This document shows, piece by piece, positions 16,123-57,098 of a stretch of 64,000 bases of DNA. The notes under the pieces were generated by a model, which worked only from the letters and a program-made list of their open reading frames with translations, was not told the DNA's origin and did not search any database. The position numbers and the translations under genes were made by a program. How positions within the stretch are numbered: the stretch's first letter is position 1; each line of letters starts with the position of its first letter. The DNA is from Punica granatum (taxonomy: Eukaryota > Streptophyta > Magnoliopsida > Myrtales > Lythraceae), in contig NC_045134.1 of assembly GCF_007655135.1 (NCBI RefSeq), positions 20,236,568-20,300,567 of the forward strand. Direction: 5' to 3'.

Positions 16123-18188
16123 GATTCGGAATACAGACAAGAGATGCGCATTCTGAAATGGCTAACTTTGCTCTGAATGCCTTAAATGAGTAAAACCGGC
16201 TTCCGAGCCAAAAATCACACAAATCTTCCTTTGGGCAAAATGGAGGATTTCGGGCTCGATTAAATCATTTTCGTGCGCGCAATGACAATTCGATGTTCGT
16301 TTGATCTATGAACCTCGAACACGCGATGAATCGAGACCCGAACTTTGGCCCGAACTTCCCTTGTGACCCGTGGGGCCCACGGCCACACTCATGGCCGCCT
16401 CATCCATGCCATTGCCGCCCCTCTCATTGTCTTCTTCTTCCATTCAACTTGCCTTATCCTTCCATGGAAATATCAAGCCTACCATTTCATTCTTGCACTC
16501 CATCTTCATTAATGCCCATCAATGCTCTTATCTCTTCCCCATCAATGCAATGGAAAAAGGATTGGGTTGATTTTTCTCTAAGCTAGCCGCCCACCCCTTT
16601 AATCATGCTTTCATTGTACTTTTCTTCACTTAATTGTTATTAAGCTTAGCCTATATATGCATTTTATGTCATAAGCTAATCACAAGTCACCACACATCAT
16701 CTCTCTAGCTTTCTCACTCTTGAAATCCTCTCAAGAACTCAGAAAAATCACAGCTCTAGTTCAACAAACACTAAGCAAGAACATCAAAGACTTAAGTCGG
16801 AATCATCCTGGCTTAAAACCAAACTTCACCAAACTTCATATCCCACATCTTTTCGACCTCCTCTATCCATTTTCGGGCTTAGATTTTATTTTTGGAGCCT
16901 CCAACCCATCGGAACAAGCAAACACAGAATCAGATCCCGTTTTGGTCTTTCTTGGGTCAGAAATGCCAACCCAGAATCCAAGCCCTTCCAAGTCGGTTTG
17001 AGCTATCAAAACCAATCAAACACCTCCCCACACAACCCTGGGGTGTCAAGGAGTCAAGAAATCCAAGAAAAACTCGTCAGTTTAACCCCAGGAAGAAAAA
17101 ACAGCCCGACTGCCCAATCGGGTCGAAATATCTGACTATTTGTGCGGTTTTCTTGCAGATCGGGTCGATTCGAAACTCTTTTCGCAAAAGGATCACCACA
17201 ACCACCTCCGGAGGTGAGTTAGGAGTCGGGAGCCGTTGGCCTTGCCTCAAAATTCCATCGGAAGACACCACAGTGATGTCCGACCCGAAACTGCCCAGTC
17301 GGGTCTGTTTTTCCATCGGGAGCCTCCGTGGCGACGTCCGACTCGACTTGTGCCAGTCAGGTCTGTTCAGTTTCCAACCGGGTCTGTTAAGGCTATTCGG
17401 GGCTGTGCAATGCCAACATAGCCCAAACTCGACCTAACAAAGGTCCAACCCGACTTTTTGCAGTCCCATCCCGTATCTCAGGACTAGGTATGACCATTCC
17501 CTACTTAGAGGAGTTAGGACTTTTACATTTTGTTGTGTTTACGGAGTCATAAGGCATTTTTATGCAAGTTTTACTCCCAAATTTTAATATTATGCAATTT
17601 TCTTATTATATCATACTTGTTTATCATCGTTTAATGTGCTAGTATGTCGGGAAACATTTAAATCGAAGTTAAAGAGACCGATTTAATCCCTAACGACCAA
17701 AGAGGCACACGGGTTTCCTTTGAGAAAAGGTAATCGTGGCCCCTTTGTTGGTTTTTCGGGTTATAATCGGTTTTTTTATCCCGATTTGAGTTGATTCCCG
17801 AATTTTTATGTTTTCCCACACCCATGAAGTCGGTATTAATTTATTGATTCCCTCAATAACTTGTTTGTGCTTGTTATGTTTGAATGTGTTATTTAAATCA
17901 TGACAATACTGACTTTCATTTAATCGTGTCATTTATCGTGTTTGTTGCTTGAGCATGTGAGAAATTACTCGAAACGAGACGGGGAAAACTCGTGGAACCC
18001 GATGTAGGCCATGAGACCTCTCGGTTTTCTCCAAGAAGAAACGACCGAGAGTCTCTTAGACTCGTACGGGTTGCATGAGGCTTCCTCTCCCCATTTTAAG
18101 TCCGTTCTCGGTTTTTGTGTAATTTGCAATCTACATTATTGTCGCAATATAGCATGAAAATGTCTTTTCCAAACAAAACATGCATGGA
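14293..18188. repeat. large palindrome of two LTR copies, head-to-head
   Basis: The left arm 14293-16122 and right arm 16497-18188 are inverted copies of the LTR promoter and R/U5 region, with a 374-bp loop (16123-16496) that is U3 sequence present only in plus orientation. The outer ends match through ATGCATG at both sides. The arms are clearly alike by eye over their whole length, with scattered substitutions and small indels. Confidence 0.75.
16123..18188 (+). repeat. LTR, U3 to U5 part (LTR-c), truncated both sides
   Basis: Plus-oriented copy of the LTR family. U3 (16123-16640) matches LTR-d, a TATATATG box lies at about 16651-16658, and R/U5 follows with the TTTTCGACCTCC...CCATTTTCGGG block at about 16850-16880. 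The right end is lost at about 18188, where Harbinger transposase begins. Open stretches such as 16720-17001 are chance ORFs in the R/U5 region: an equivalent frame in the inverted arm differs by ordinary neutral-looking changes. Confidence 0.65.
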
Positions 18189-18960
18189 AAATAGTAAATG
18201 TGTCAAAATACACTCACCACTACACGACGTAAAAAATAATTTCAATGTCGCAATTTCGAAAAATATTCTTGAATCGTGTGCCGAACCCTCTAAACCTCGT
18301 CATGACATATGTAAATATCATATCGTGAGAACAAGCAGCTAATATATTTTGTGATATTTCAGCATTTCGATCACAATAAGGTACTATGTTCGCCTGAGGC
18401 ACACATGCAGCCACATGGGCTTCATCGACAGCTCCGATACAATGCCGCGTGCAAATGCATAATTATATGTAACTTACATAATATAACGAATTGAATTATT
18501 ACAGTATTGAATTATCAGAAAAATACCTTAAAGAAATGCCACTTTTGAACATTTTCAATTTTCGGCTGCACAATAACGTTCATCTGTCTTATAAGAACAG
18601 GTGCTATGACTTGTATTCCTCGAATAATTTTTTTGAATGTTCGAGACACTGTCTCCTTTGAATGTTGGTACCTTTTTGCTATTACTACATATCGCGTACT
18701 ATGTAAAATAACCAATAAGAACATTGCGAACATCTCTTCAACTGTTATACCATTCCTAGTATCATTGATGTCACAGCGCAACCGAAGTGTGTCACAGAGA
18801 TTTCTAAACACATACGGTTCCATTCTAAAACTCTCACAGCATCTAACGTTACTCCCCAAAGGCCTTACTTGGGAAGTAAAGAAATTTTCAATTCTACTTA
18901 ATTTAACTTACTACTAGGCAAAGACAACTAATATTTTGAAGAAGGAGGGACTCACCAGTT
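18189..18960 (-). pseudogene. PIF/Harbinger transposase, partial inverted copy
   Basis: The minus strand encodes MEPYVFRNLCDTLRLRCD and TVEEMFAMFLLVILHSTRYV (18859-18515), the N-terminal part of Harbinger transposases. After a frame change comes VPQANIVPYCDRNAEISQN, which follows the first catalytic Asp region (18414-18220). The copy ends at 18189 against LTR-c, so the second Asp and the Glu are missing. The 5' part is better preserved here than in the facing copy at 19405-20685, which lacks an 11-nt piece. Confidence 0.7.
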
Positions 18961-18978
18961 GCCTTGGTTTGATTTGTG

Positions 18979-19013
<35 letters not shown>

Positions 19014-19404
19014 TTATTTATTTATTTGCTTACGGTCGATGGCAATAAGAGTACCATTGGGTAGGGGTCATCCTACCCAACATAACCCCTCAGAAGCTCC
19101 TCCTTTCTTCATGCTCCATACTATTCTTTAGGGTTCGGTGCGTTCATTGCAAAATTTCGAGTGAAATCGGCACAAGGAAGTTGTAATCCAAGCCGAAAAC
19201 TCGCGATTACTGACTCGAAAGACTCAATTTCACTGATTACTAACCTCCCATGCATTATTTGTAGACCGTCCAGCCATGAGGAGCATTGGGGGCAAAGGAC
19301 GTGCGAAGAATAGTAAAAAGAACGACTTTGTTAGGAGTGATTCGAGGAAATAGTGTGGTCTGTCACCGAAGGACAAAGATTCTCGACTTGGGTCCCTCCA
19401 AATG
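18961..19404. other. loop between the two Harbinger transposase copies
   Basis: This holds a long AT/TTTA microsatellite (18980-19027) and about 370 bp with no recognisable gene. Both transposase copies are transcribed away from it, so it may be a shared upstream region. Confidence 0.5.
18980..19027. repeat. (AT)n-(TTTA)n compound microsatellite
   Basis: A run of AT dinucleotides followed directly by about five TTTA units. Confidence 0.95.
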
Positions 19405-20685
19405 ATGAGTCATTCCCTCTTCAAAATATTAGTTGTCTTTGTCTGGTAGCAAGTTCAATTAAGCAAAGTTGAAAATTTTGTTACTTCCCAATCAGGGCCT
19501 TTTAGGAGTGACATTAGATGCTTCGAGAGCTTCAGAATGGAACCGTACGTGTTTATAAATCTTTGTGACACACTTCGACTGCGCTGTGACATCACTGATA
19601 CTAGGAATCGTATCACCGTTGAAGAAATGCTTATTGGTTATTTCATATAGTACGCAATATGCAGTAGTGACGGAAATGTACCAACATTTGAAGGAGATGG
19701 TGTCCCGAGCATTCAACAAAATTCTTCGAGGAATACAAGCCTTAGCACCAATTTTTATAAGACATATGAACGTTATTATGCAACCGAAAATTGAAAATGA
19801 TCAAAGGTGGCATTTTTTTAAGGTATTTTTTTGATAATTCAATACCATAATAATTCAATTTGCTATATTATGTAAGTTACATATAATTATGCATTTGCAC
19901 GCAGTATTGTATCAGAGCTATCGATGGAACCCATGTGGCTACATGTGTGCCTAAGACGAACATAGTACCTTATCGCGGTTGGAATGTTGAAATATCACAA
20001 AATATACTAGTCGCTTGTTCTCACGATATGATGTTTACATGTCATGACGAGGTTAGGAGGGTTCGACACACGATTCAAGAATATTTTTCAAAGCTGCGAC
20101 ATTTGAATTATTTCTAGAACCGCGTGGTAGTGAGTGTTTGCAGATACATTTACCATTTTCCATAAAGATGCAACTCTAACATGTTTAACTGTAATTTTCC
20201 TTTTGTTCTTTCTAGAACAATATTATGTTGTTAATGGATGGTTTTCAAATATACCGAGATACTTGACTCCGTACAAGGGGGAACGGTATCACTGGAGTGA
20301 TTTTCCCCAATAGAGTCCGTTGACAACAAAGAGGGAGCTGTTAAATCAGCACCACACATCAACGCGTAATGTCATCGAACGTTGTTTCGGTATTTTGAAG
20401 AGGAGATTCACCATACTTAGATTAATGCCAAACTTCAAACCTTATCCACGAGAACAAATTGCCCCTATTTGTTTTGTTTTGTATAATTTTATACGGCGCA
20501 ATAATTATCACGACAGATTATTTCTAGAGTACGGCGATACGTGGACGAATTATGATGAATTTCAAAATTCACCAGAACAACCAGGAATTAGAATTGAAGT
20601 GGATAAGAGTAGCACCGAAATGAATGTTATATGCGATCGTATCGCTGCTCAATTATGGCGCGCAGAGAAAGGATGGAAATAACAT
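19405..20685 (+). pseudogene. PIF/Harbinger DDE transposase, frameshifted
   Basis: Segments in order: MEPYVFINLCDTLRLRCD (19540 on), a helix-turn-helix-like block, IDGTHVATCVPKTN with the first catalytic Asp (about 19925), VVNGWFSN at the place of the usual VDxGY second-Asp motif (about 20230, so Asp appears replaced by Asn), and RNVIERCFGILKRRF with the catalytic Glu (20371 on). The last 363 nt are one open frame ending at 20682. An 11-nt deletion near 19637 relative to the inverted copy, plus other indels and stops, makes it non-functional. The transposase would cut and paste the element in the nucleus. Confidence 0.75.
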
Positions 20686-23880: not shown

Positions 23881-24246
23881 AAGCAAAAATGGCCGTCGAT
23901 TCCCAAAATCAACCGAATATCCCCATGGAAAAATGTGGCATTCTTGGACTCATTAAAGCCGATTTTTCGCGCACATTAATTACACGACACTTACTTGAGC
24001 TACGGGCATCAAATGTACGAATAACCGGGATACGAGCTTTTCAAATTTTCTTCCCGAAGTCACATAAGACCCAAGGTCACCCAAATGCTTCCAAGTGTCC
24101 AAAAATGATAATATTGTGCTCATTTGAATCGATTTTTTTACGAGCATTACCGATTCCGCCATAACTTGAACTACATGACTCGAATTCGCGTCTAACCGAA
24201 ACCCGAACATCGCCAATTCACTTCCAAACTTTGTGGGACCCCTCTA
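23881..24246 (+). repeat. LTR (LTR-f), U3 part left of the pararetrovirus
   Basis: It repeats the U3 pattern of LTR-d/e and its last 70 bp match 37432-37496 in reverse complement. The homology to that paralogue stops at 24246 and resumes at about 35888. This shows that the viral DNA was inserted inside this LTR. Confidence 0.65.
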
Positions 24247-24639
24247 TCACGCGGATTATACAAAAACGAATACTATGGATTAGACGAGGAATTTGCCGGA
24301 CTAGCAGGAGGACTCCTACGAATTCTATCGACAAGAGACTCAGTTATAGCCCTATTAACACAGGCTCGACATTCGACTAATTGACTTCTGTAACCTAGGG
24401 TGGACTGGACGACGCATCCTAGCAAAGAATCAAAATAAAAGAATTTAGAAGCTTTCCTCGGAGATCTCACCATGTGTTAGGAGTATGCTTCACAGAATGT
24501 TTCATAAGCTATGCTTCAATGAATGTGACTGCATTGAGAGGCCTTGCCGGAACATGGACTGTTTGATTCCGAAACTCGGGTAGTTAACCTGAGCTTGTCA
24601 AGCGACTTAGATTCTTCTAGATAGATCCTTAGTAAGAAT

Positions 24640-25628
24640 ACTAAGTTCATTGACTTGACTCTTAAGATCTGCTATGTCTTCCCTATGGGGTAGAACTATG
24701 ACTTCAGGAGCTTTCTCCAAGATTTCATCTTGACTTACAACAGACCCTTTATCAGAATAATCTTTAAGCCTAAGGCTCTCTAGACGATCTAGATTTTCAC
24801 GAATTCTACTGACTGTTAAAGGTTCAGAGATTGTTTCTGGAATTTGACTAGACGAGAAGAACTAGCTTCTTCGATTGCTGGCAAAGGTAGACGAGAAATT
24901 GGCTCTAACCTAGTGGAGGTTCTAGCGAATAATTCATCTATGACTATTTTGTCTTTGTTAATGAATTCTACAGAATGATGACTGTTAGACAAAGCATATG
25001 AGCATGCATAAGTTATGCTAAATGGAATATCAGCATCTTCCATAATATCTTTTCGTTCAAGTTCGAAAAGTAGACCAAGAGAATTGTTGAATTTAGACGA
25101 AGACAACGGAATAGCATAGTTGCAAGTAACATTAAACTTGACAACAGAATAACCAAGATCACCAGAAATTATTCCTATGACCTTTTCAGAATCCTTTGTC
25201 ATACGATTATCTATGACGACTATTTTGACTGGACAATGAATTCCTCTACGGAAAGTAGACTTAATCAAGATTTGTATGGTAGACACATGAATCCAACCTA
25301 TCTTGGATCTATCAGACTCTTTCATCTTCTTGATTCTTTCATTGACTTGTTCGGAATTGACTAAAGTTAGACACCTATCTCCCTTAGCTTCTCTAAGTTT
25401 GATTGGGAATTCTTCTAGGGTTCTTCCTAGACAGACTATGTTTTTACGACTGTGCAACAGACTCCCTAACAGACCTTTCTTAACCCTAGATCTAAAACCA
25501 GATCCATCTTTCAGGGTTATGACTCCATTTCTTTCGACTTCTGTTATCCTAGCATCTTCTATTAGAATATCAGTAGAATAATCTCCAGACTCTTCACGCA
25601 AAGATACTACAGAATATAAATCTTCCAT
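24640..25628 (-). pseudogene. viral movement protein, frameshifted copy
   Basis: Starts at 25628 exactly as the intact copy at 33385 and is identical in sequence for most of its length. One T is missing from a run of four at about 24843-24846, so the frame leaves the family sequence after residue 261 and stops at 24816. The remaining C-terminal third is present downstream in another frame, down to about 24640. The 30K-superfamily core is therefore complete but the C-terminus is replaced by nine unrelated residues. Confidence 0.85.
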
Positions 25629-25644
25629 GAATTCTCAGAATATT

Positions 25645-25803
25645 TCAGACTTCAATCAGATGAATTTCAAAGATTAAACCAGAGAATTCTCTAAGAATAT
25701 AATGAACGAATGCATGAGCATCATTATAAGATTCAAAAGAATAAACATTAAGAGTAGGAATGTTATCAGGACGAACAATCATAAATACTTCAAGAATAAA
25801 CAT
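25645..25803 (-). CDS. 52-codon viral ORF upstream of the movement gene, inverted copy
   Basis: Same 159-nt ORF as at 33210-33368, open in this copy too. It lies 16 nt before the movement protein start. See that entry for the description. Confidence 0.45.
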   Translation of the reverse strand: MFILEVFMIVRPDNIPTLNVYSFESYNDAHAFVHYILREFSGLIFEIHLIEV

Positions 25804-26039
25804 CGTAACACAGAATATGAATGAATTGATGATTCTTATTGATAGAATACTTAAACCTAATTTTGGGTCAAGCCCTGTGCTGGTTAAGCACGGAAACTAA
25901 GATAAGGAGAGGATGGGCTCCAGGGGACTACCTGTGACTCCGGCGGCGGCCTCCTGCCTGTGCCTCTGTCTTTGGTCTCACCCAACCTCTTACTCTCACT
26001 CACTTATTTAGCTCCCTTAAGACCGAGGGGAGCGACTCC

Positions 26040-26046
26040 TTATATA
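26040..26046 (-). promoter_or_regulatory. TATA box of the inverted viral promoter
   Basis: The minus strand reads CCCTATATAAGGAG, the same as 32962-32975. It would drive transcription leftward through the frameshifted movement gene into LTR-f. Confidence 0.65.
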
Positions 26047-26282
26047 GGGATAAAAGACGCATCTCAACCATTGATAAGCAACGGCTGAGATTCAGATCTA
26101 AAAATAAAGGTAAGTGGCCGACAAAAGGCGCACCAACCGAAAAGTAATGGATGACAACGGACAACGTGTCAGAGCCATAAAAGCAAAAGAGCTAGACGAC
26201 AAGGCCCTAGTGGCCGACACATACAGCTGTTACATAGCTGTAAGATTCCTTCAGACGTAAGGGATTACGTCAGTCTTCTATC

Positions 26283-27372
26283 GGTTCCAGCTCATCTTCA
26301 GAGACTCCTATTGGGCTGGACTCCTCCTTGGTTGGGCTTGATGACTCCTTGGGCTAGGACTGCAGCATTGGCATTTATGGTTGCCAACCCATTCGCCCTT
26401 GGCGCCCGAGAGATTATGACAGAGTTCGGCCCTGTTGCGGGGTTTACAGACTTCGAGATCTATAATAGGTCTCTCAAAGATTCTTAAAACCCGCTCCTGG
26501 GCTGCGTTCATCTTGAACTTTGGATTGCTTGGGTGTGAAACCAGAAGAATGGTGGCTGACTTGTAACGGACAGCCGTTTGTGCAGTCATGTTTTGAAGAC
26601 GTCTGCACAGACCAATGTAGTTGACTATATAATATCCGTCTCGGTTATCCTGACGGAGAGCTTCTGACGGACAAGAATCGATTGGTGGGAAGTTCATGTT
26701 GCTCTTCCCGATTGTTACGAGGTGGACTGCATCGATTGGGTCGTTTGAGACTGCTGTAACATCCTCCCCCCTCGGAAAAAATCCTGGATAAGAGGAAAGA
26801 TATTTGACGTAGATATCTTTGCTTTCAACGACTCCATGGCAGAACTTGGAGACTGCTTCCTTGAATCTACCATTGAACATCTTGAACTGTTCGTTGATAG
26901 ACTTGCCATTGGCGTAGATTGTGTCCACTAGACCGCTCATAAAGAACTCATAAACGGTCTCTGATGATGCTTCAGGTAGAATGATAGCCTTGGGGCCATA
27001 AGTATGACGCCAGACTGGATAGAAGCCCATAGACTTATAGGCCTCCTTGTACTCTACGAGCTGAGTGAAACGCCCGCGGTACTGCTCGACAGTTAAGACT
27101 TGCTTCTTTTCAAACTCCTCACGAGTTGGAATGCTTGAGATGGTGGGAACTCCTGCTGAAGAAGACTCACCATGGATTCTTCCAAGACTGCGTAGCTTGT
27201 TGATACCTTCCCTGTGAGGGAAAGGTGGCGTTGCAGCCTTAGCGGCAAAAGTATTGCCAGACTCCTTCAATGCATCCTTAGCAGACTCAAGAGTTTTATA
27301 ACTCTTGTGCACGATGTTTGGCTTCCCTGAGACATGTAGGGAGACTTTGTGCCATTCATCGTAGATGCCACG
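26283..27372 (-). pseudogene. viral transactivator (TAV), 5'-truncated and frameshifted copy
   Basis: The copy begins inside the viroplasmin/RNase H1-like domain (equivalent to codon 179 of the intact gene) because the inversion joint at 27372 removes the N-terminal third. The frame is open from 27312 to 26308. One A is missing from a run of three at about 26352, so the C-terminus ends RSHQAQPRRSPAQ instead of the acidic tail. A few amino-acid changes distinguish it from the intact copy (for example Cys to Tyr and Lys to Arg near the middle). Confidence 0.85.
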
Positions 27373-27407
27373 GTGACTAAGCTAGGCATGCAGTCGACGA
27401 AGATAAG

Positions 27408-28958
27408 ATGTCAGAAGTTTCTATAACTTCAAGCAAGAAGTCGAGTCGAAGAAAGACTAGGACTAGATCTGTCAGTCCAATCCGGTCTAGGTCTAGATCA
27501 AGGTCTAGAAAATCCAAGTCTAGGTCTCCTAGTATTCCGTCTCTTAAAGACAAAGCTTTCAATATGACTGAAGAGCAAGGTGATGTTATGTTTGCCTTCT
27601 CAGATGAAGAAGTCTTTGAACCTAGGTTCAACATAGGTCAAGAACGTAGTTTTCCAGCTACTAAGCGTAGGGATCGTCCTACAAAGAGAGAAGAAACTTT
27701 CATGGAAGAACACCGTGAAGGTAAGGATTCTGAATATAATAGAAATTTTGATAAGGATTTCTATAGTCAAGGTTTCTTTCAAGCAGGTGGAAAATGGAAG
27801 AAAGAAACTCCACAGAAGTATAGACTTCTGCGTACTGGCAATGCGAATTCTTTTGGAACAGTCTTAGATCTCGATTGTGTTGATGACAATGAAAGAGTCT
27901 TGTCTGATTGGGTCATGAAGACCAAATTAGAAGTCTCAATAGGAGAAGAATATTCTAAGTTGTCTAACAGAGAACTCTGGCAACTTTTGTTGCATAAAAC
28001 TCGTGGACAGGTACATCAGTATATGTCTATGATTTCCACTCTTATTAATTATGAAACTACTCCTTTTACTTCTTTCACTCGAAGTGAATTATGGAATCAT
28101 TTTGTCACTAACATTGAACGTGAGTTCATTGGTTCAGTCACAACAGGTGTTGGAGCAATCGAAAAGCAGCAGGAGCTTAAGCATAAGCTCAATAAATTAG
28201 AAATCTGTGATATGTGCTTTTTCAATTCTTTCTACTGTCAGTATAAGGAATATTACTACCAGTTAATAGAAGCCGCGGATATTACCGCTTATAGGAATCT
28301 TTTTATAGACAAACTTCCTTACCCAGTCTCTAGTGTTGTCAAGGAAAGATATGACCACGAAGTCGAGATAGGAGCAGTCTATCCAACTCTAGGTGGTATA
28401 GCGTCAATAGTCAAAAAACATATGGAAGAAGTCTGTCTTAGACGAAAAACAGAGTCTATGATGAAGAAGACTAGAATATGCTGTGGTCCAGAACAAGGAC
28501 TAGATATTCCGCAGCAGTATGGCTGTAGGAGCAAGTCTAGAAAAGTCTCTAGGAAATCTTCTAGAATTCCTAAGAAACGTTATCGTCTTAAGCGATATTC
28601 TGGCAATAGGCCACCATGGAAGAGTCGGTCTAAAAGACAAAACTGGAGAAGTCGAAAATTTTTTCGAAGGGGGGGAGGATTTAGAAAAACAAACCCTAAA
28701 AGAAGTCTAGATAAAAAGAAGTATTGCCCTGAGGGTAAGAAGACATGTCGTTGTTGGATCTGCAACGAAGAAGGTCATTATGCGAATGAATGCAGTCAGA
28801 AAAGGAATCGTAGTAACAATCGTGCCCAAGTATTCTTAGGTGTCATGTCTAGAAACTATGAGCCTATAGAGGATTCTGATTATGATTCTGACGAGTCTTA
28901 TTATGAGTTGATTACAGACTCAGAATATTCTGATTCGGAGTACTCCAGCGATGGCTAA
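27408..28958 (+). CDS. pararetroviral coat protein
   Basis: Intact 516-residue ORF. The N-terminus (residues 1-50) is Arg/Ser-rich with RSRSRSRSRKSKSRS, which resembles SR-protein domains and could serve nuclear import. The central capsid core is followed by a basic region (residues about 365-440) and a zinc knuckle CX2CX4HX4C at Cys449, Cys452, His457 and Cys462, the hallmark of caulimovirid coat proteins. The C-terminal 30 residues are strongly acidic (Asp/Glu/Ser/Tyr). The protein would assemble the particle and bind pregenomic RNA. The stop overlaps the start of the polymerase ORF by 8 nt. No promoter is seen directly upstream; the inversion joint lies 35 bp before the ATG. Confidence 0.85.
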   Translation: MSEVSITSSKKSSRRKTRTRSVSPIRSRSRSRSRKSKSRSPSIPSLKDKAFNMTEEQGDVMFAFSDEEVFEPRFNIGQERSFPATKRRDRPTKREETFMEEHREGKDSEYNRNFDKDFYSQGFFQAGGKWKKETPQKYRLLRTGNANSFGTVLDLDCVDDNERVLSDWVMKTKLEVSIGEEYSKLSNRELWQLLLHKTRGQVHQYMSMISTLINYETTPFTSFTRSELWNHFVTNIEREFIGSVTTGVGAIEKQQELKHKLNKLEICDMCFFNSFYCQYKEYYYQLIEAADITAYRNLFIDKLPYPVSSVVKERYDHEVEIGAVYPTLGGIASIVKKHMEEVCLRRKTESMMKKTRICCGPEQGLDIPQQYGCRSKSRKVSRKSSRIPKKRYRLKRYSGNRPPWKSRSKRQNWRSRKFFRRGGGFRKTNPKRSLDKKKYCPEGKKTCRCWICNEEGHYANECSQKRNRSNNRAQVFLGVMSRNYEPIEDSDYDSDESYYELITDSEYSDSEYSSDG

Positions 28959-31116
28959 GGAGAACCCCAACGCAACATTCATTCAGGTTAGAATTCTTAA
29001 TAAAACAATCATGGCTTACATTGACACAGGTGCGAGCGTGTGTTTCGGCAAGCCCAGTCTGCTTCCAGGTAAATACTGGAAACCTATGGAATATCCTTTA
29101 GAGATAGCAATCGCTGATAAGTCTGTCCTTAGGATAATTCATAGAGCAGAATTCGTCAATTTAGTCATTCAGGAGACTAGGTTTCCAACTCCTAGTATCT
29201 ATCGTCATGATTCTGGCATGGATCTAATCATAGGAAATAATTTCCTTAGGTTATATCAGCCTTTTGTCCAACGGACTAAGTTCGTAGAACTAACGTGTCC
29301 TACTCTAGATAATCAAAAGAAAAGAGTCGTTCAAATTCCAATCTACCATAGTAATAGAGTAAAGCAACTTAGGTTGTTACATTATCTGTCTAGTTCCATT
29401 AAGGAAATAGAAAATGATATAGTCTCGGCTGAAATAGATCAGCTTTTAGATGCAATCACTAGTGAAAACCCACTAGACCAGTCTAAAAATAGAAATAGAA
29501 TGCTCGTAGAAATCAAGCTTAAGGATCCTTTGAAAGAAGTCAAAGTCCCTAATAACATTCCTTACACCATCAAGGATGTAGAAGAATTCAAGGAAGAATG
29601 CAAGCAACTCTTAGAGTTAGGAGTCATTCGTCCTAGTAAAAGTCGCCATAGTGCACCAGCATTCTACGTAGAAAATCATAATGAACTAAAACGCGGTAAA
29701 AGGCGTATGGTCATTAACTATAAACGCATGAACGAAGCTACTTTCGGTGATGCGTACAGTCTTCCTAGAAAGGATTACATTCTAGCTAAGCTAAAAGGAT
29801 GTCAATGGTTTAGCACTCTAGATGCCAAGTCAGGTTATTGGCAAATCCGTCTAGAAGAGTCTACTAAGGAGTTAACAGCTTTTACTTGTCCTCCTCAGAA
29901 GCAGTATGAATTCAATGTCTTACCTTTTGGTCTTAAGCAGGCACCATCAATCTACCAGCGTTTCATGGATGAAAATCTAGCAGGTTTAGATTCTTTCTGT
30001 TTAGCATATATAGATGATATTATCATCTTTTCAAAAGGAAGTCTTGAAAATCATAGAAATCATCTTAAAACAGTTTTAAAACGATGTTTTAACAAAGGAA
30101 TCATTATTTCGAAAAAGAAAGCAATTCTTTGTAAAAAAGAAATCGATTTTCTTGGTTTAACAATCAAGCAAAATGGAGATTTTAGTCTTCAACCACATAT
30201 TCTTGAAAAACTAAATCTCTTTCCTGATAAAATGGAAGATAGAAAGCAGTTGCAACGTTTTCTTGGTAGTCTAAACTACATTTCTGACCAGGGATGGTTG
30301 AAAGACCTATCCAAGGCTAGAAAAAGTCTTCAAGAAAAACTTTCTGAAAAAAGAGTCTGGACTTGGTCTGAAAAGGATTCTGAAAACGTTCGATATTTGA
30401 AATCTATTTGTAAAAATCTTCCACCTCTTTATAATCCATCAAATGAAGATTTGATTATTATTTCTACTGACGCAAGTGGAGACACTTGGTCCGGAACGAT
30501 GACCGCCGTCATCGGTAAAGCATTCGATATCGATTCTAAGGATTTCCTCTCTCTTTTGAGGATGAAATCCTATGACGAGGGTAATCCTCTGTCAGTCTTG
30601 GCTTCGGCCTATCGGACACCGTGCTCCGTTAACACGAGACAATTCCTTGGCTTATTTCCATTAAGGTTAAGCCCTGGTCCCTTGTGTCTAAACAAGGACG
30701 ATAGAAGTCTTCCGTCTTCGGACGCTGAATCTCTGCGGTTGCGGAAACAATCGCGTCCCTTGGGGACTATGCATGCTAACTTAGCTTCTTCCTTGCAGGA
30801 ACGTCTGTGTAAATATGTTTGCGGTTCTTTTTCAAAGACCGAACAGAATTACACTACTCATGAGCGCGAGCTCCTAGCAGTCATTAAAACTCTCAAGAAA
30901 TGGCGTGTTGAACTTCTTCCCAGGAAGTTTATTCTTAGAACTGATAGCAGTTATGTTACTCGGTTCAGGCATCTTAAAGGATTCAAGCAGGGATACAATC
31001 AAGGACGTCTCATTCGATGGCAACTAGAACTTGAGCCATACACTTTCGTGGAACAACACGTAAAAGGAAGCGACAACATTCTTCCCGATACCCTAACTCG
31101 GGAATGGAAGCCTTGA
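28951..31116 (+). CDS. pararetroviral polymerase: aspartic protease, reverse transcriptase, RNase H
   Basis: Intact 721-residue ORF. Protease: IDTGAS with catalytic Asp25. Reverse transcriptase (about residues 190-420) has the DAKSGYWQI block and the catalytic YIDD at 353-356. RNase H starts at STDAS with Asp507 and continues with HERELLAV and RTDSSY. Between Asp507 and the next conserved block lie about 90 extra residues encoded by 30515-30784, which have no counterpart in the family and a different composition. No integrase domain is present, as usual in Caulimoviridae. The product would process the polyprotein and copy pregenomic RNA into DNA in the cytoplasm. The stop overlaps the transactivator start by 13 nt. 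Confidence 0.9.
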   Translation: MAKENPNATFIQVRILNKTIMAYIDTGASVCFGKPSLLPGKYWKPMEYPLEIAIADKSVLRIIHRAEFVNLVIQETRFPTPSIYRHDSGMDLIIGNNFLRLYQPFVQRTKFVELTCPTLDNQKKRVVQIPIYHSNRVKQLRLLHYLSSSIKEIENDIVSAEIDQLLDAITSENPLDQSKNRNRMLVEIKLKDPLKEVKVPNNIPYTIKDVEEFKEECKQLLELGVIRPSKSRHSAPAFYVENHNELKRGKRRMVINYKRMNEATFGDAYSLPRKDYILAKLKGCQWFSTLDAKSGYWQIRLEESTKELTAFTCPPQKQYEFNVLPFGLKQAPSIYQRFMDENLAGLDSFCLAYIDDIIIFSKGSLENHRNHLKTVLKRCFNKGIIISKKKAILCKKEIDFLGLTIKQNGDFSLQPHILEKLNLFPDKMEDRKQLQRFLGSLNYISDQGWLKDLSKARKSLQEKLSEKRVWTWSEKDSENVRYLKSICKNLPPLYNPSNEDLIIISTDASGDTWSGTMTAVIGKAFDIDSKDFLSLLRMKSYDEGNPLSVLASAYRTPCSVNTRQFLGLFPLRLSPGPLCLNKDDRSLPSSDAESLRLRKQSRPLGTMHANLASSLQERLCKYVCGSFSKTEQNYTTHERELLAVIKTLKKWRVELLPRKFILRTDSSYVTRFRHLKGFKQGYNQGRLIRWQLELEPYTFVEQHVKGSDNILPDTLTREWKP
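30515..30784 (+). other. 270-nt in-frame insert in the RNase H region, bounded by GT and AG
   Basis: The segment starts GTAAAG and ends CTAACTTAG, is exactly 90 codons long and open, and is richer in G+C than its surroundings. Without it the spacing of RNase H motifs would be normal. It could be an unusual intron, an inserted foreign piece or a lineage-specific domain. The branch-like CTAAC lies too close to the AG for a standard plant intron. A better-looking acceptor (TTGCAG at 30798) would put the downstream part out of frame. Confidence 0.5.
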
Positions 31117-32741
31117 AGGCTCTCGATGATGTCGTGGCCACTAAAATGGCTACGATTGAAGCACTCATGAAAGAAGTCGAAAGCATCCAGCTTCAAAAGG
31201 AGCAGCTTGCCAAGGTTCTTGGCATCGAAGTCGAAAAGAAGTCTCTCCCAGCTGAGACTTTGAAGGAATCTACAAAGGAAAATATTCAGGAATCAATCCC
31301 TGAATACATCCAGCAGTCTGCTAACCAGCGCAGGAAAGAAGTCGGAGAACAAGGAACATCTTCCTTCATTCCAAAGGAATCTCCTGTCCAACCTAAAAAG
31401 AGATGGGCTGACCAATCTGATGACGAGTCAGAAGTAACTGAGTCCAAGCTCTCAGTTACCCGCAAGGAGTCAGTAGAAGAGTCCAAGCTCTCTTCTACCC
31501 GCTTTGATGAGTCAGTTGCCGGGTCCAAGCTCCCAGCAACCAGCACAGCAGTCTCTGTAGAGACCGTCCTTCCAGATGAATCTCTCTGGCAGCATGCCAA
31601 AGCAAAGAAATTCTACGTCATATTCAATGGTCCAATGCGTGGCATCTACGATGAATGGCACAAAGTCTCCCTACATGTCTCAGGGAAGCCAAACATCGTG
31701 CACAAGAGTTATAAAACTCTTGAGTCTGCTAAGGATGCATTGAAGGAGTCTGGCAATACTTTTGCCGCTAAGGCTGCAACGCCACCTTTCCCTCACAGGG
31801 AAGGTATCAACAAGCTACGCAGTCTTGGAAGAATCCATGGTGAGTCTTCTTCAGCAGGAGTTCCCACCATCTCAAGCATTCCAACTCGTGAGGAGTTTGA
31901 AAAGAAGCAAGTCTTAACTGTCGAGCAGTACCGCGGGCGTTTCACTCAGCTCGTAGAGTACAAGGAGGCCTATAAGTCTATGGGCTTCTATCCAGTCTGG
32001 CGTCATACTTATGGCCCCAAGGCTATCATTCTACCTGAAGCATCATCAGAGACCGTTTATGAGTTCTTTATGAGCGGTCTAGTGGACACAATCTACGCCA
32101 ATGGCAAGTCTATCAACGAACAGTTCAAGATGTTCAATGGTAGATTCAAGGAAGCAGTCTCCAAGTTCTGCCATGGAGTCGTTGAAAGCAAAGATATCTA
32201 CGTCAAATGTCTTTCCTCTTATCCAGGATTTTTTCCGAAGGGGGAGGATGTTACAGCAGTCTCAAACGACCCAATCGATGCAGTCCACCTCGTAACAATC
32301 GGGAAGAGCAACATGAACTTCCCACCAATCGATTCTTGTCCGTCAGAAGCTCTCCGTCAGGATAACCGAGACGGATATTATATAGTCAACTACATTGGTC
32401 TGTGCAGACGTCTTCAAAACATGACTGCACAAACGGCTGTCCGTTACAAGTCAGCCACCATTCTTCTGGTTTCACACCCAAGCAATCCAAAGTTCAAGAT
32501 GAACGCAGCCCAGGAGCGGGTTTTAAGAGTCTTTGAGAGACCTATTATAGATCTCGAAGTCTGTAAACCCCGCAACAGGGCCGAACTCTGTCATAATCTC
32601 TCGGGCGCCAAGGGCGAATGGGTTGGCAACCATAAATGCCAATGCTGCAGTCCTAGCCCAAAGGAGTCATCAAGCCCAACCAAGGAGGAGTCCAGCCCAA
32701 TAGGAGTCTCTGAAGATGAGCTGGAACCGATAGAAGACTGA
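31104..32741 (+). CDS. pararetroviral transactivator / viroplasmin (TAV)
   Basis: Intact 545-residue ORF. Residues 1-60 look helical and charged, then comes a Ser/Thr-rich linker with three repeats of an ESKLS/GSKLP motif (about 110-150). Residues about 165-215 form the caulimovirus viroplasmin domain (RNase H1 N-terminal-like fold), with KKFYVIFNGPMRGIYDEWHK. A long central region follows, then a His/Cys cluster (about 505-515, NHKCQCC) and an acidic tail. In relatives TAV forms inclusion bodies and allows translation of downstream ORFs on the polycistronic RNA. The stop codon overlaps the first TGACG of an as-1-like element. Confidence 0.85.
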   Translation: MEALKALDDVVATKMATIEALMKEVESIQLQKEQLAKVLGIEVEKKSLPAETLKESTKENIQESIPEYIQQSANQRRKEVGEQGTSSFIPKESPVQPKKRWADQSDDESEVTESKLSVTRKESVEESKLSSTRFDESVAGSKLPATSTAVSVETVLPDESLWQHAKAKKFYVIFNGPMRGIYDEWHKVSLHVSGKPNIVHKSYKTLESAKDALKESGNTFAAKAATPPFPHREGINKLRSLGRIHGESSSAGVPTISSIPTREEFEKKQVLTVEQYRGRFTQLVEYKEAYKSMGFYPVWRHTYGPKAIILPEASSETVYEFFMSGLVDTIYANGKSINEQFKMFNGRFKEAVSKFCHGVVESKDIYVKCLSSYPGFFPKGEDVTAVSNDPIDAVHLVTIGKSNMNFPPIDSCPSEALRQDNRDGYYIVNYIGLCRRLQNMTAQTAVRYKSATILLVSHPSNPKFKMNAAQERVLRVFERPIIDLEVCKPRNRAELCHNLSGAKGEWVGNHKCQCCSPSPKESSSPTKEESSPIGVSEDELEPIED

Positions 32742-32760
32742 CGTAATCCCTTACGTCTGA
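32739..32760 (+). promoter_or_regulatory. as-1-like TGACG palindrome
   Basis: TGACGTAA and TTACGTCTGA face each other across four bases. This is the TGACGTAA-type target of plant TGA bZIP factors, known from caulimovirus promoters. It lies about 205 bp upstream of the TATA box, farther than in the classical case. The same element occurs inverted at about 26262-26283. Confidence 0.6.
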
Positions 32761-33209
32761 AGGAATCTTACAGCTATGTAACAGCTGTATGTGTCGGCCA
32801 CTAGGGCCTTGTCGTCTAGCTCTTTTGCTTTTATGGCTCTGACACGTTGTCCGTTGTCATCCATTACTTTTCGGTTGGTGCGCCTTTTGTCGGCCACTTA
32901 CCTTTATTTTTAGATCTGAATCTCAGCCGTTGCTTATCAATGGTTGAGATGCGTCTTTTATCCCTATATAAGGAGTCGCTCCCCGTCGGTCTTAAGGGAG
33001 CTAAATAAGTGAGTGAGAGTAAGAGGTTGGGTGAGACCAAAGACAGAGGCACAGGCAGGAGGCCGCCGCCGGAGTCACAGGTAGTCCCCTGGAGCCCATC
33101 CTCTCCTTATCTTAGTTTCCGTGCTTAACCAGCACAGGGCTTGACCCAAAATTAGGTTTAAGTATTCTATCAATAAGAATCATCAATTTCATTCATATTC
33201 TGTGTTACG
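32742..33209 (+). promoter_or_regulatory. viral intergenic region and leader
   Basis: Holds the promoter elements and a leader of about 200 nt. The leader contains a GC-rich segment (33055-33075) in an AT-rich setting and several A-rich AATAAG-like stretches (33004, 33172) that could act in polyadenylation. No classical AATAAA was found. A full, long stem-loop as in caulimovirus leaders could not be verified by eye. Confidence 0.5.
32965..32971 (+). promoter_or_regulatory. TATA box of the viral promoter
   Basis: TATATAA in the context CCCTATATAAGGAGTCGCTC, in the only long non-coding region of the viral arm (32742-33209). It is the likely TATA box of the pregenomic RNA promoter; transcription should start about 30 bp downstream. 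Confidence 0.7.
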
Positions 33210-33368
33210 ATGTTTATTCTTGAAGTATTTATGATTGTTCGTCCTGATAACATTCCTACTCTTAATGTTTATTCTTTTGAATCTTATAATGATGCTCATG
33301 CATTCGTTCATTATATTCTTAGAGAATTCTCTGGTTTAATCTTTGAAATTCATCTGATTGAAGTCTGA
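33210..33368 (+). CDS. small viral ORF (52 residues) upstream of the movement protein
   Basis: ATG at 33210, TGA at 33366-33368, 16 nt before the movement gene. The product starts MFILEVFMIVRPDNIPTLN and contains FESYNDAHAFVHYILREF; it is rich in Phe, Ile and Glu and has no signal peptide. It sits where some caulimovirids carry a small ORF VII. The same frame is fully open in the inverted copy. No family match recognised; it may act only as an upstream ORF in translation. Confidence 0.5.
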   Translation: MFILEVFMIVRPDNIPTLNVYSFESYNDAHAFVHYILREFSGLIFEIHLIEV

Positions 33369-33384
33369 AATATTCTGAGAATTC

Positions 33385-34407
33385 ATGGAAGATTTATATT
33401 CTGTAGTATCTTTGCGTGAAGAGTCTGGAGATTATTCTACTGATATTCTAATAGAAGATGCCAGGATAACAGAAGTCGAAAGAAATGGAGTCATAACCCT
33501 GAAAGATGGATCTGGTTTTAGATCTAGGGTTAAGAAAGGTCTGTTAGGAAGTCTGTTGCACAGTCGTAAAAACATAGTCTGTCTAGGAAGAACCCTAGAA
33601 GAATTCCCAATCAAACTTAGAGAAGCTAAGGGAGATAGGTGTCTAACTTTAGTCAATTCTGAACAAGTCAATGAAAGAATCAAGAAGATGAAAGAGTCTG
33701 ATAGATCCAAGATAGGTTGGATTCATGTGTCTACCATACAAATCTTGATTAAGTCTACTTTCCGTAGAGGAATTCATTGTCCAGTCAAAATAGTCGTCAT
33801 AGATAATCGTATGACAAAGGATTCTGAAAAGGTCATAGGAATAATTTCTGGTGATCTTGGTTATTCTGTTGTCAAGTTTAATGTTACTTGCAACTATGCT
33901 ATTCCGTTGTCTTCGTCTAAATTCAACAATTCTCTTGGTCTACTTTTCGAACTTGAACGAAAAGATATTATGGAAGATGCTGATATTCCATTTAGCATAA
34001 CTTATGCATGCTCATATGCTTTGTCTAACAGTCATCATTCTGTAGAATTCATTAACAAAGACAAAATAGTCATAGATGAATTATTCGCTAGAACCTCCAC
34101 TAGGTTAGAGCCAATCTCTCGTCTACCTTTGCCAGCAATCGAAGAAGCTAGTTCTTCTCGTCTAGTCAAAATTCCAGAAACAATCTCTGAACCTTTAACA
34201 GTCAGTAGAATTCGTGAAAATCTAGATCGTCTAGAGAGCCTTAGGCTTAAAGATTATTCTGATAAAGGGTCTGTTGTAAGTCAAGATGAAATCTTGGAGA
34301 AAGCTCCTGAAGTCATAGTTCTACCCCATAGGGAAGACATAGCAGATCTTAAGAGTCAAGTCAATGAACTTAGTATTCTTACTAAGGATCTATCTAGAAG
34401 AATCTAA
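33385..34407 (+). CDS. pararetroviral movement protein (30K superfamily)
   Basis: Intact 340-residue ORF. The core (residues about 35-230) has the features of caulimovirus movement proteins: FRSRVKKGLLGSLL, then IGWIHVSTIQILIKSTFRRG, the conserved VVIDNRM Asp motif near residue 150, and a following beta-rich segment. The C-terminal 60 residues are predicted coiled coil (LDRLESLRLKDY, IADLKSQVNELSILTKDLSRRI), which in relatives binds the virion-associated protein. It would modify plasmodesmata for cell-to-cell spread. It is the first large ORF after the promoter, as in Soymovirus and Caulimovirus. Confidence 0.85.
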   Translation: MEDLYSVVSLREESGDYSTDILIEDARITEVERNGVITLKDGSGFRSRVKKGLLGSLLHSRKNIVCLGRTLEEFPIKLREAKGDRCLTLVNSEQVNERIKKMKESDRSKIGWIHVSTIQILIKSTFRRGIHCPVKIVVIDNRMTKDSEKVIGIISGDLGYSVVKFNVTCNYAIPLSSSKFNNSLGLLFELERKDIMEDADIPFSITYACSYALSNSHHSVEFINKDKIVIDELFARTSTRLEPISRLPLPAIEEASSSRLVKIPETISEPLTVSRIRENLDRLESLRLKDYSDKGSVVSQDEILEKAPEVIVLPHREDIADLKSQVNELSILTKDLSRRI

Positions 34408-34596
34408 GTCGCTTGACAAGCTCAGGTTAACTACCCGAGTTTCGGAATCAAACAGTCCATGTTCCGGCAAGGCCTCTCAATGCAGTCACATTCATTGAAG
34501 CATAGCTTATGAAACATTCTGTGAAGCATACTCCTAACACATGGTGAGATCTCCGAGGAAAGCTTCTAAATTCTTTTATTTTGATTCTTTGCTAGG

Positions 34597-34965
34597 ATGC
34601 GTCGTCCAGTCCACCCTAGGTTACAGAAGTCAATAAGATTCGGTCCTCCAAGAATGTCTAGGAAAAGATCCCTTGAAGAAAACAATCTAGAAATCGCAAC
34701 AGCGTCTCAGTCTAGAGCCTATCGGGAAATGGTTCATACCATCCCTCAAGCTAGGAAGATTCAGCTTACAGAAGCAATCTGGAATGGAGAAATGATCCAT
34801 CTGATGAACTATTCTCCAGAAGAGCAACTCTATCTCCTAGAAGCAAATGCGTCTAGAAAGAAAATAGGAGTCAAAGTCGCAGAGTTTTGCTCTGAATGCA
34901 GTCCTTATGTTTTCTTTAATGAGTCTAATGGTTGGAATATTATTCCATCTGAAAGATGCTCTTGA
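34597..34965 (+). CDS. viral ORF of unknown function (122 residues)
   Basis: ATG at 34597 after a 190-bp spacer. The N-terminus is basic (MRRPVHPRLQKSIRFGPPRM); the middle is helical with NYSPEEQLYLLEA; the C-terminus has three Cys, including FCSEC, but no complete zinc motif. It lies between movement gene and primer site, where soymoviruses carry small ORFs (Ib type). It is deleted from the inverted arm apart from its first codons. No homology recognised. Confidence 0.5.
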   Translation: MRRPVHPRLQKSIRFGPPRMSRKRSLEENNLEIATASQSRAYREMVHTIPQARKIQLTEAIWNGEMIHLMNYSPEEQLYLLEANASRKKIGVKVAEFCSECSPYVFFNESNGWNIIPSERCS

Positions 34966-35077
34966 TAATTGCATTCTTGTTTGCAGTAGCATCTATTAAT
35001 TTCTTGCCTTTGCAGATTATTATTCTATGTATCTTTATTTGGATTCATATAATGAAAAGTCTTTCTGATTATTAGTA

Positions 35078-35371
35078 ATGGATCTTTCAGATCGCATACT
35101 TACAGTCAGAGTTTTATCTCATATTCTTCGTCTAACTCGGTTAGATAGGCAAGATCAAGCTGTCGAAGCATTAAAAACCGTAGGATATGAAACCCTAAGG
35201 TATTTTAATGTAATCTTAGAATCAGTCATTAGGCGTTGTGAAGACCCTAGTCTGTTATTGAAATTAGTCGAATGTCGAGCCTGTGTTAATAGGGCTATAA
35301 CTGAGTCTCTTGTCGATAGAATTCGTAGGAGTCCTCCTGCTAGTCCGGCAAATTCCTCGTCTAATCCATAG
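35078..35371 (+). CDS. viral ORF of unknown function (97 residues)
   Basis: ATG at 35078, stop at 35371, ending 32 nt before the primer site. It starts MDLSDRILTVRVLSHILRL and appears mostly alpha-helical and Arg/Leu-rich, with a Pro/Ser/Asn-rich C-terminus. Only its last 35 codons survive in the inverted copy. No domain recognised. Confidence 0.45.
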   Translation: MDLSDRILTVRVLSHILRLTRLDRQDQAVEALKTVGYETLRYFNVILESVIRRCEDPSLLLKLVECRACVNRAITESLVDRIRRSPPASPANSSSNP

Positions 35372-35403
35372 TATTCGTTTTTGTATAATCCGCGTGAGAA
35401 ATT

Positions 35404-35414
35404 TGGTATCAGAG
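35404..35414 (+). other. tRNA-Met primer-binding site of the pararetrovirus
   Basis: TGGTATCAGAG matches the 3' end of plant initiator tRNA-Met (complement) over 11 bases; the following ACATG departs from the usual GCC. It marks where minus-strand DNA synthesis starts and where the viral DNA has a gap. Its place after the movement gene, rather than in the large intergenic region, is a soymovirus-like trait. Confidence 0.75.
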
Positions 35415-35469
35415 ACATGTTTAGCAATCCTAAAAGTATAATTAGCAGTCCAATTAGATAGATTTAATC

Positions 35470-35887
35470 ATGCTAGGATCTGGTAATCTTGAGAAACTTC
35501 TCAAAGAAGTAGGCTATCAAAGAACTCTAGGTGAAGCCTTTAGGCAAAATCCTTATTTCGATGAAAATAGCATTCATGGTCTAGCATTTCCCACTGAGAA
35601 ATTCTTCGACGAAAATAAGTCTTTAGTTGAGTGTACCCAAGGAGATAAGTACCCTCATGTTAGTCATACGTTCCACCCACAGTTGAACGTTATAGTCGAT
35701 CTTTTGATAGTCCTAAACCAGAAAATTAGTCAAAAACAGCATGAAGAAATCTCGAGTCTTAAAGAAGAACTCAATGAAGTCATTAGGAGAATAAAAGAAA
35801 TCTCGTTTAAAGAAACTTTAGACGAAACCACTAAGCTTTTAGATGAAGTCGTTGGAATTAGAGAGTCTGTTTCAAAAGGGGGGAAGG
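35470..35887 (+). pseudogene. viral coiled-coil ORF, 3'-truncated by the integration border
   Basis: ATG at 35470. About 139 viral codons remain; the frame continues by chance into LTR sequence up to 35997. Residues about 75-135 are a clear coiled coil (EEISSLKEELNEVIRRIKEI, then TTKLLDEVVGI). The N-terminal part is globular (GSGNLEKLLKEVGYQRTLGE). Position and coiled coil suggest the ORF II (transmission-factor-like) or virion-associated protein group. The true C-terminus and any following ORF III are missing. Confidence 0.55.
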
Positions 35888-36910
35888 AACCTCATACCCT
35901 AATTGACCTAAAAAAGTGTGGTGCCGACCAAACCAAGTCGGCAGCCACCAAACCAACCACCTCCCTTTCTTATCCGAATTCTTCATATTCAAGTTAACAA
36001 ATTAGACGTTTCATCTTCTTCAAATCCAACTCAAAGCCAATTTGCAAGCCATCATTTTGGACTAATCTCCTTCCCTAATTGGTGCAAAATTCGCCTAGCC
36101 ACCACAATTTACCTTAATTGCACGTAATGTTTACAAAATGGCCTTTTACGTACCTCTATAAATACCTAAGTGTATAGCCATTCAATGACAACTTTTCTTG
36201 CATACATTTCACTCAAAATACTTTCAAAAGAATCCCCTAAAAGCCTCAGCTCGTCCAGCTCCCTAAAAATCCCGAAATCAAGCCAAAATTGCCGAAAAAC
36301 AAATCATTTTCCGGCGACCACCTAACCGACCCATCCCGAGCCTTGAACTAATACATACCCCTCATGTTTTCGACCCCCCAAGTCCATTTTCAGGGTTAGT
36401 TTTAGTAGTTGAGGCCTCCAATTGCCAGTTCCATCCCACTATACAACTGGGTCCTTTACCGGTTCTCGGGTTGCAGCGAACTTGTGCACCATGCCGAATC
36501 TTAAATCGGACCATTCTTGGAGATTTAACTCGTTCATATCCTCATACACTTCCTAAGGGTCCTCTCAGAAGAAGGAAACATCAAACAAACCACTAAACCA
36601 TACTTAAACACAAGACTTTCTAAACCGAATCTAAAAGGACAATTTTTTCACTTACCGGGTTTTCTTGCTATTTCGGGTTAGCACAGGTTCCCGCACATCC
36701 CGAGCCACCCGTAGTCACCTCCTAAACCCTCTTGGAAGGTGTCCCAGGCCGAGCCAGCTCAAGCAACCAACCCGATCCACTGGTGCAAGCAAAGCAAAAT
36801 CGGACCTCTTCTCGGGTGAACAATACCAACCAAGTTCTCTTCCACTTTCAACGTGTTTTCAACAACTTTATCGACTTGTCTTTGACTCTTGAAACCAGGT
36901 ATAACCCCCT
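35888..36910 (+). repeat. LTR-f, part right of the pararetrovirus (U3 end, R, U5)
   Basis: Resumes the LTR at GACCTAAAAAAGTGTGG, which aligns with the uninterrupted paralogue at about 37420-37395 (minus). A CTATAAATAC box lies at about 36152, then the R/U5 block TTCGACCCCCCAAGTCCATTTTCAGGG (36369-36395). No coding sequence; the ORFs at 36665 and 36732 are not credible. Confidence 0.6.
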
Positions 36911-37400
36911 TGCAACTTAAAAGGAGCTATGACCTTTAGATCTTTAAGTTTGTGGGGTGATAAGGTGGTTTTTCATTCGGTTCTATTCCATACTTTCGTT
37001 TATCTCGTTTTATTTCAGTTATTTGCTTGATTTCGGGATTTTCAAGGAGCTGGACGAGCAGAGTCTTTAAGGAGATTCTTTTGAGAGCATTTTGAGTGAA
37101 ATGTATGCAAGAGAAGTTGTCATTGAATGGCTATGCACTTGGGCATTTATAGATATGTTTAAATGGCCATTTTGCAAAAATTAAGTACAATTAAGGCAAA
37201 TGGTGGTGGCTAGTCGAATTTTGCACCAATTAGGGAATGGGGATTAGTCCAAAATGGTGACTTACAAGTTGACTTTGAGCTGGATTTGAAGAAGATGAAG
37301 CAAAGTCTAATTTGTTGGCTTGAAAATGGAGAATTCAACTAAGAGAGGGAGGTGGCTGGTTTGGTGGCTACCGACTTGATTTGGTGGATCTCACACGTTT
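35917..37400. repeat. palindrome of two LTR copies
   Basis: The left arm 35917-36290 and right arm 37035-37400 are inverted copies covering the U3 end, TATA box and start of R. The loop (36291-37034) is the U5 part of the plus copy. TATA boxes at 36152 (+) and about 37153 (-) face each other. Confidence 0.7.
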
Positions 37401-37495
37401 TTAGATCAGTTTGGGCAACTAGGATGTGTCCCACAAAGTTTGGAAGTGAATTGGCGAAGTTCGGGTTTCGATTAGACGCGAATTCGAGTCACCTG
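37035..37495 (-). repeat. LTR fragment, U3/R (LTR-g)
   Basis: Minus-oriented U3 and R of the same family, without the viral insertion. It therefore serves as the empty-site reference for the pararetrovirus insertion. It ends at about 37495 against Harbinger transposase. Confidence 0.65.
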
Positions 37496-56759: not shown

Positions 56760-56761
56760 AT

Positions 56762-57093: not shown

Positions 57094-57098
57094 ATATG

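Follow-up and report, generated by a model that had tools for sequence, protein, structure and literature searches.

We report that a 64,000-nt stretch of Punica granatum (pomegranate) DNA, hereafter the window, carries what is very probably an endogenous caulimovirid of the Soymovirus lineage, made of fragments of two near-identical genomes that were linked head to head through host end-joining and came to lie in one arm of a host inverted repeat. The viral block, numbered here in window positions, runs from 24241 to ~35896 and consists of an 8.5-kb plus-strand piece and a 3.1-kb minus-strand piece of one virus of this lineage (Table 1). An earlier reading of the same DNA (the original prediction) had recognized an endogenous pararetrovirus at 24247-35887. 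That identification is supported by the Pfam gene set and by a chromosomal insertion with host flanks, and the outer coordinates agree with our measured limits to within ~10 nt, but its text passed over the second partial copy, which occupies 24247-27372 in inverted orientation.

The evidence for insertion comes from the host inverted repeat, the left arm of which is split in two by the viral block whereas the right arm is continuous. Alignment of the joined flanks to the inverted right arm returned the empty site, without a target-site duplication, and because the other repeat arm has the two flanking sequences almost side by side, we regard the block as a real insertion. Integration into a plant chromosome without target-site duplication is in keeping with the block being a caulimovirid. 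The empty site and the short fillers at the junctions fit host end-joining and speak against the outer borders being an assembly chimera.

Within the block, the minus-strand piece closely repeats parts of the plus-strand piece, with 24377-27372 being the inverse of 31638-34637 (3000 bp, 99.6% identity) and 24247-24382 the inverse of 35262-35397 (136 bp, 100%), and the sequence in between deleted. Over ~3000 sites the arms differ by 8 substitutions, 7 of which are transitions, and by 4 gap columns. At 7e-9 to 1.3e-8 substitutions per site per year, an arm similarity this high would bound the age of the insertion to roughly 0.1-0.2 million years, unless gene conversion kept the arms alike, which supports the recent integration put forward in the original prediction. 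The reverse complement of the filler between the two pieces matches viral sequence from C4 (L013) at 17 of 19 nt, counted by eye.

A search for other copies, proposed in the original prediction as a check, was made with the polymerase (Pol) across the 320-Mb pomegranate genome, where 62 of 3,688 candidates were scored and all copy counts are consequently lower bounds. At least 39 of the 88 listed Pol matches have at least 65% identity, and these lie at eight sites: C8 (the window), C4 9.75-9.87 Mb, C2 3.34 Mb, C7 15.75 Mb, C5 22.23 Mb, C2 42.03 Mb, C1 49.34 Mb, and C4 34.69 Mb. At least 14 of the 39 span residues 1-721 without a stop, and the remaining 49 listed matches, at no more than 34% identity, look like Ty3-type retrotransposons. 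The C4 island (L030-L043, G000:C4:9741086-9876313) extends over 135 kb, ~95% of which is covered by chained viral segments (summed by hand). These segments belong to several lineages and occur in either orientation; some stretches are duplicated, and one head-to-tail pair has a unit length of 9385 bp. At C2, a palindrome of 19.2 kb (L044-L046, G000:C2:3334176-3353392) holds two near full-length copies head to head, with arms of ~9.56 kb each and two different AT-rich sequences as outer flanks; arm differences number 1 in 3392 bp, 1 in 2433 bp, and 9 in the 7567-bp centre, which was aligned to itself so that each difference there is counted twice. At C7 (L014-L018, L024; G000:C7:15750806-15773399) four Pol copies follow each other head to tail ~6.99 kb apart, and a stretch sampled between two of them (L018) is without the N-terminal part of the coat protein (CP) and much of open reading frame (ORF) II; these repeats may represent a deleted, perhaps helper-dependent, form that was repeated. 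A search of IMG/VR gave three pattern matches and no relative.

Between these lineages Pol has been under purifying selection. Among eight representatives the ratio of nonsynonymous to synonymous divergence (dN/dS) was 0.060-0.113 in 22 of 28 pairs, the other 6 being saturated. Most of the divergence between the lineages therefore arose while they replicated as viruses, and their entries into the genome were separate events. Within groups, where differences are few, pairs went either way, with dN exceeding dS for L016 against L015 and L017 and falling below it among L007-L009. Among the copies compared, the nearest relatives of the window Pol have 90-91% nucleotide identity, with a maximum of 90.8% against the other seven lineages.

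Several of these copies end at nearly the same viral position, just upstream of the tRNA-Met primer-binding site. The minus copy of the window stops ~6 nt short of the primer site, at CCGCGTGA. In the C2 palindrome the two outer ends lie at CCGCGTGAG or up to 3 nt further (TAA also being common to the arms), beside its two different flanks. The C4 ends at 9838205 (duplicated at 9853301) and 9872812 lie at CCGCGTGTGA, at or within ~4 nt of the same point. This amounts to five junctions at four places, with ends no more than ~4 nt apart; where a copy is not interrupted, as in the plus copy of the window, it continues through the primer site. Downstream of the primer site, at a distance of no more than ~50 nt, are the inner ends of both C2 copies; taken with the outer ends, they identify each copy as a linear molecule of nearly full length that was opened across this site. 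The primer site is also missing from a head-to-tail joint at C4 (9783957-9783983), and a tail-to-tail joint at ~9805372 lies shortly upstream of it. In Caulimoviridae, minus-strand synthesis begins at the primer site, and these ends are thus the free ends expected of reverse-transcribed viral DNA.

Viral chain ends were also counted mechanically for C2 3.34 Mb and C4 9.74-9.88 Mb, two of the eight sites; on a 9543-nt circle, 13 of 68 fell inside the 101 nt around the primer site, the fullest 50-nt bins being w35289 (6 ends), w35339 (5), and w35389 (5). The counted ends 9742664 and 9814846 were rejected as true ends, as the primer site is present beside them and they are only homology limits to the window lineage, and 9874716 was discarded as the mirror of 9742664, C2 and C4 both containing duplicates. 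Since homology limits and duplicates inflate this count, we claim only the ends that were seen base by base.

The outer end of the minus copy lies at the start of minus-strand synthesis, which suggests that the viral DNA was opened there; a free viral end at this discontinuity would be what was joined to the chromosome, and the fillers would stem from polymerase-theta-type repair. We tentatively propose, as a possibility that falls somewhat short of probable, that pomegranate holds a natural record of chromosomal entry by a pararetrovirus without integrase, that endogenization in this lineage usually starts from open-circular DNA that has broken where minus-strand synthesis begins, in many cases as a palindromic dimer, and that the lineage itself is a deep branch of Soymovirus, unnamed and active until very recently, with a ~9.5-kb genome and an enlarged coat ORF. 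Entry through free ends at a discontinuity has likewise been raised for endogenous rice tungro bacilliform virus-like sequences, whose ends were reported in the intergenic region and at sites of putative strand discontinuities (PMC526188). Those sequences belong to a different genus and host, and in pomegranate several ends agree to ~4 nt beside the primer site. A 2023 review still calls the mechanism of caulimovirid integration speculative (PMC10377300, section 3.1).

A number of observations count against this account of the locus. The clustering of ends rests on the five junctions named above, one of which (9838205 at C4) joins viral movement protein (MP) sequence rather than host DNA, and many other ends in the C4 island lie away from the primer site. 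The central and right-hand viral ends of the window locus are not at a known discontinuity; the ends in CP, the transactivator (TAV), and ORF II do not fit opening at the primer site, and we take them as breaks. The empty-site junction contains a 10-column gap, so that between 0 and ~10 bp of host sequence may have been lost, and gene conversion could also explain the similarity of the arms, which would make the locus older than it appears.

The head-to-head arrangement might instead be of chromosomal making, if one viral fragment had been inserted and later inverted and duplicated in place, leaving a host-made inverted repeat and not the remains of two viral molecules. Arms that are 99.6% alike would be expected from such a history, and inverted and repeated segments, some of them duplicated, do recur in the C4 island. 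We nevertheless consider it quite unlikely, given that the minus copy ends at a viral primer-site position common to separate loci, that it has a deletion from which the plus copy is free, and that a single host repeat arm contains the whole block, neither flank being duplicated. An assembly chimera, named in the original prediction as a finding that would overturn it, is highly improbable: although the many similar viral copies in this genome invite misassembly, the two flanks adjoin in the sister repeat arm to ~10 bp, and the window Pol differs enough from the seven other lineages compared that its sequence was not borrowed from them.

A further reading concerns present function rather than origin, namely that the locus still acts as a source of silencing, with its inverted arms giving rise to hairpin RNA and small RNAs against a related virus, by analogy with the rearranged caulimovirid repeats of tomato reported as a silencing source (PMC10377300). 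The 3.0-kb arms and their near-identity would be suited to this, but the TATA box and its mirror image would, from their strands, read outward, and a hairpin RNA would need read-through from a host promoter; we judge such a role unlikely. Two near-identical fragments joined by host end-joining remain our preferred explanation of the arrangement.

Pfam searches of the plus-strand ORFs recovered the caulimovirus coat domain, a zinc knuckle, A3 protease with reverse transcriptase (RT) and RNase H, Cauli_VI, and MP; the CCHC knuckle scored 19.6 bits, slightly below the curated cut-off of 20.8, and no integrase domain was found in the seven plus-strand viral ORFs scanned. The ORF lengths of 516, 721, 545, and 340 codons given in the original prediction were exact, and the short overlaps that it described are present, measuring 8 nt (28951-28958) between coat and Pol and 13 nt (31104-31116) between Pol and TAV. 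Its statement that all major ORFs are open holds for Pol, TAV, and MP, of which Pol and MP are full length by comparison with other genomic copies and Pol keeps all columns that are invariant across 16 aligned rows, but it does not hold for CP. The coat ORF is truncated at its 5' end, because its ATG at 27408 aligns with an internal Leu in the C2 copy or Ile in P0055 and because the C2 ORF reaches ~287 codons further upstream (counted by hand from its first Met at L011:1826 to the place of the window ATG); the Arg/Ser-rich stretch read as the coat N-terminus is actually an internal segment of this longer ORF. Homology in ORF II ends at 35894 against C2 and at 35899 against C4, and host sequence lies beyond. 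The missing segment inferred earlier is real, comprising ~1.04 kb between ORF II and the coat domain (L011:1632-2668), and is in place at C2 and present in a diverged form at C4.

With CP and ORF II truncated and ~1.04 kb absent, the gene set of the locus is incomplete, as had been concluded in part from a promoter lying downstream of the coat-polymerase-transactivator block; this last argument falls away, since a circular gene order normally has the promoter after CP-Pol-TAV. The locus encodes Pol, TAV, and MP and is expected to be a fossil unable to yield virus by itself, because its coat ORF is incomplete and it lacks a terminally redundant genome. A ~244-nt part of the large intergenic region is 83% alike in the C7 lineage. 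A Pfam scan assigned no family to the 122-codon ORF or to the 97-codon ORF, for which the single match (E 0.19) was far below the cut-off. The primer-site motif is weak alone, with 8 matches at up to 2 mismatches in the window vs 4.2 expected, and is found at the same place, between ORF97 and ORF II, in C4 copies. An extra stretch in the RNase H region was considered as an enzyme-breaking insertion and dropped, as the 16-row alignment has a linker of very variable length there in most soymovirus rows; it is absent in CYLCV and in three Caulimovirus/Ruflodivirus rows.

To place the lineage, a maximum-likelihood tree was built from 52 Pol rows, comprising 8 of the 17 extracted pomegranate copies and 44 of 187 listed database proteins picked by name and spread, with genus labels of the reference rows that are in part presumed. 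The pomegranate copies in the tree form one clade (100/100) on a stem of 0.48 changes per column, and this clade falls inside a Soymovirus clade (100/100, 33 rows) that holds the window and all seven named species (SbCMV, PCSV, BRRV, CYLCV, WCSV-1, and the Hibiscus and Malva soymoviruses). The suggested affinity to Soymovirus is therefore supported, and the copies group within a known genus, not outside the known genera. Their sister relationship to the group of PCSV, Hibiscus, WCSV-1, and BRRV reached only 93/87, and rows P0163 and P0056 have long branches and unsure placement. Among the virus matches listed (120 of 158 and 120 of 293), only Soymovirus, Caulimovirus, and Ruflodivirus were recognized by name, and these are the only genera that the tree contains by name. 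A position well inside a described species, the other finding that would have counted against the original prediction, was not observed: Pol is only 47-55% identical in amino acids to the seven named soymoviruses. The species criterion for named soymoviruses is given as at least 80% nucleotide identity in RT-RNase H (PMC13308828), and membership of any of these species would be very unlikely, judged from the amino acid identity of Pol.

Besides its position in the RT tree, the pomegranate virus shares several properties with soymoviruses, which have seven or eight ORFs, three of which lie between MP and CP (PMC6482551). The C4 unit, with the order MP, 122, 97, ORF II, CP ORF, Pol, TAV, has 7 ORFs and likewise three between MP and CP. 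The primer site is downstream of MP and not in the large intergenic region, as in SbCMV (in ORF Ib) and PCSV (in ORF A) (PMC6482551), and the RNase H region has the variable linker seen in most aligned soymoviruses. It differs in a unit of ~9.4-9.6 kb (9385 bp at C4, ~9.56 kb at C2) against the 8.1-8.3 kb of most soymoviruses, which is a typical size only, WCSV-1 having 7.5 kb (PMC6482551); in the long N-terminal extension of the coat ORF; and in the separate clade on its long stem with low Pol identity. A 491-aa fragment of the C2 ORF matched only two proteins, both from Punica, with 100% identity over 491 aa to P0188. Recent, open-frame soymovirus-like genomic copies are also known as the endogenous soymovirus RT clusters of Arachis, Lactuca, Chenopodium, Brassica, and Medicago (PMC9794742). 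Punica, pomegranate, Lythraceae, and Myrtales are not mentioned in the main texts of PMC9794742 and PMC13308828, and a literature search combining pomegranate with soymovirus, caulimovirid, or endogenous pararetrovirus found no description, judged by title and the start of the abstract. The locus is a newly described member of the soymovirus lineage and a known kind of element, for which the evidence of integration is unusually clean.

Table 1. Viral block and host flanks in window positions.
Feature	Position	Strand	Remarks
Host left flank, outer end of left arm of host inverted repeat	24176..24240		64 nt at 96.9% to inverse of 37428-37491; beside 35896+ in empty-site alignment
Filler of ~6 nt at host/virus border	24241..24246		By eye, matches neither host arm nor virus
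Minus-strand partial viral copy	24247..27372	-	TAV C-terminal part, intergenic region, MP, start of ORF122, ~0.6-kb internal deletion, end of ORF97
Broken MP gene of minus copy	24816..25628	-	270 codons; frame lost near C-terminal end; Pfam MP
TAV C-terminal part of minus copy	26308..27312	-	Frame lost near C-terminal end (compared with plus copy)
Central junction filler, 19 nt	27373..27391		Reverse complement of viral sequence expected beside plus-copy start
Plus-strand partial viral copy, 8.5 kb	27389..35896	+	Homology limits 27389 and 35894 vs L011
Coat-protein ORF, 516 codons, N-terminally truncated	27408..28958	+	Coat domain and CCHC knuckle retained
Pol, 721 codons, full length	28951..31116	+	A3 protease, RT, RNase H
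TAV, 545 codons, full length	31104..32741	+	Cauli_VI domain; both ends resemble Punica P0055
Large intergenic region	32742..33384	+	TATA-type box at 32965
MP, 340 codons, full length	33385..34407	+	Pfam MP; 340/340 residues align to L026 at 95%
ORF of 122 codons, full length	34597..34965	+	116/122 residues align to L026 at 74%
ORF of 97 codons	35078..35371	+	77/97 residues align to L026 at 73%
tRNA-Met primer-binding site, 11/12 nt	35404..35415	+	Between ORF97 and ORF II
ORF of 175 codons, viral-host chimera	35470..35997	+	Viral ORF II N-terminal part to ~residue 142-144, host sequence after
Host right flank, remainder of left arm of host repeat	35897..36286		Inverse of 37022-37415 at 85%
Right arm of host repeat, natural copy of empty site	37022..37491		Alignment with joined flanks

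Elsewhere, the window holds other repetitive elements. At 46372-51262 lies a Copia-type element with 180-bp end repeats that are 99% identical and a perfect primer-site motif directly after the first repeat, which is a young retrotransposon. A Ty3-type element on the minus strand at 52021-57094 has end repeats of ~330 bp with two matched blocks at 89% and 94% identity, and two large host foldback structures at 14313-18166 and 18184-20163 have arms that are 82-93% complementary.

Pomegranate, a fruit crop for which no soymovirus was found in the literature searched, carries several soymovirus lineages in its chromosomes, some of them very recent. The integrated copies would confound any attempt to detect such viruses in pomegranate by PCR or sequencing, and public Punica protein records already include viral pieces under host names (P0188, P0189). 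The repeated end position, together with a natural empty site, makes the integration of a virus without an integrase testable within one genome.

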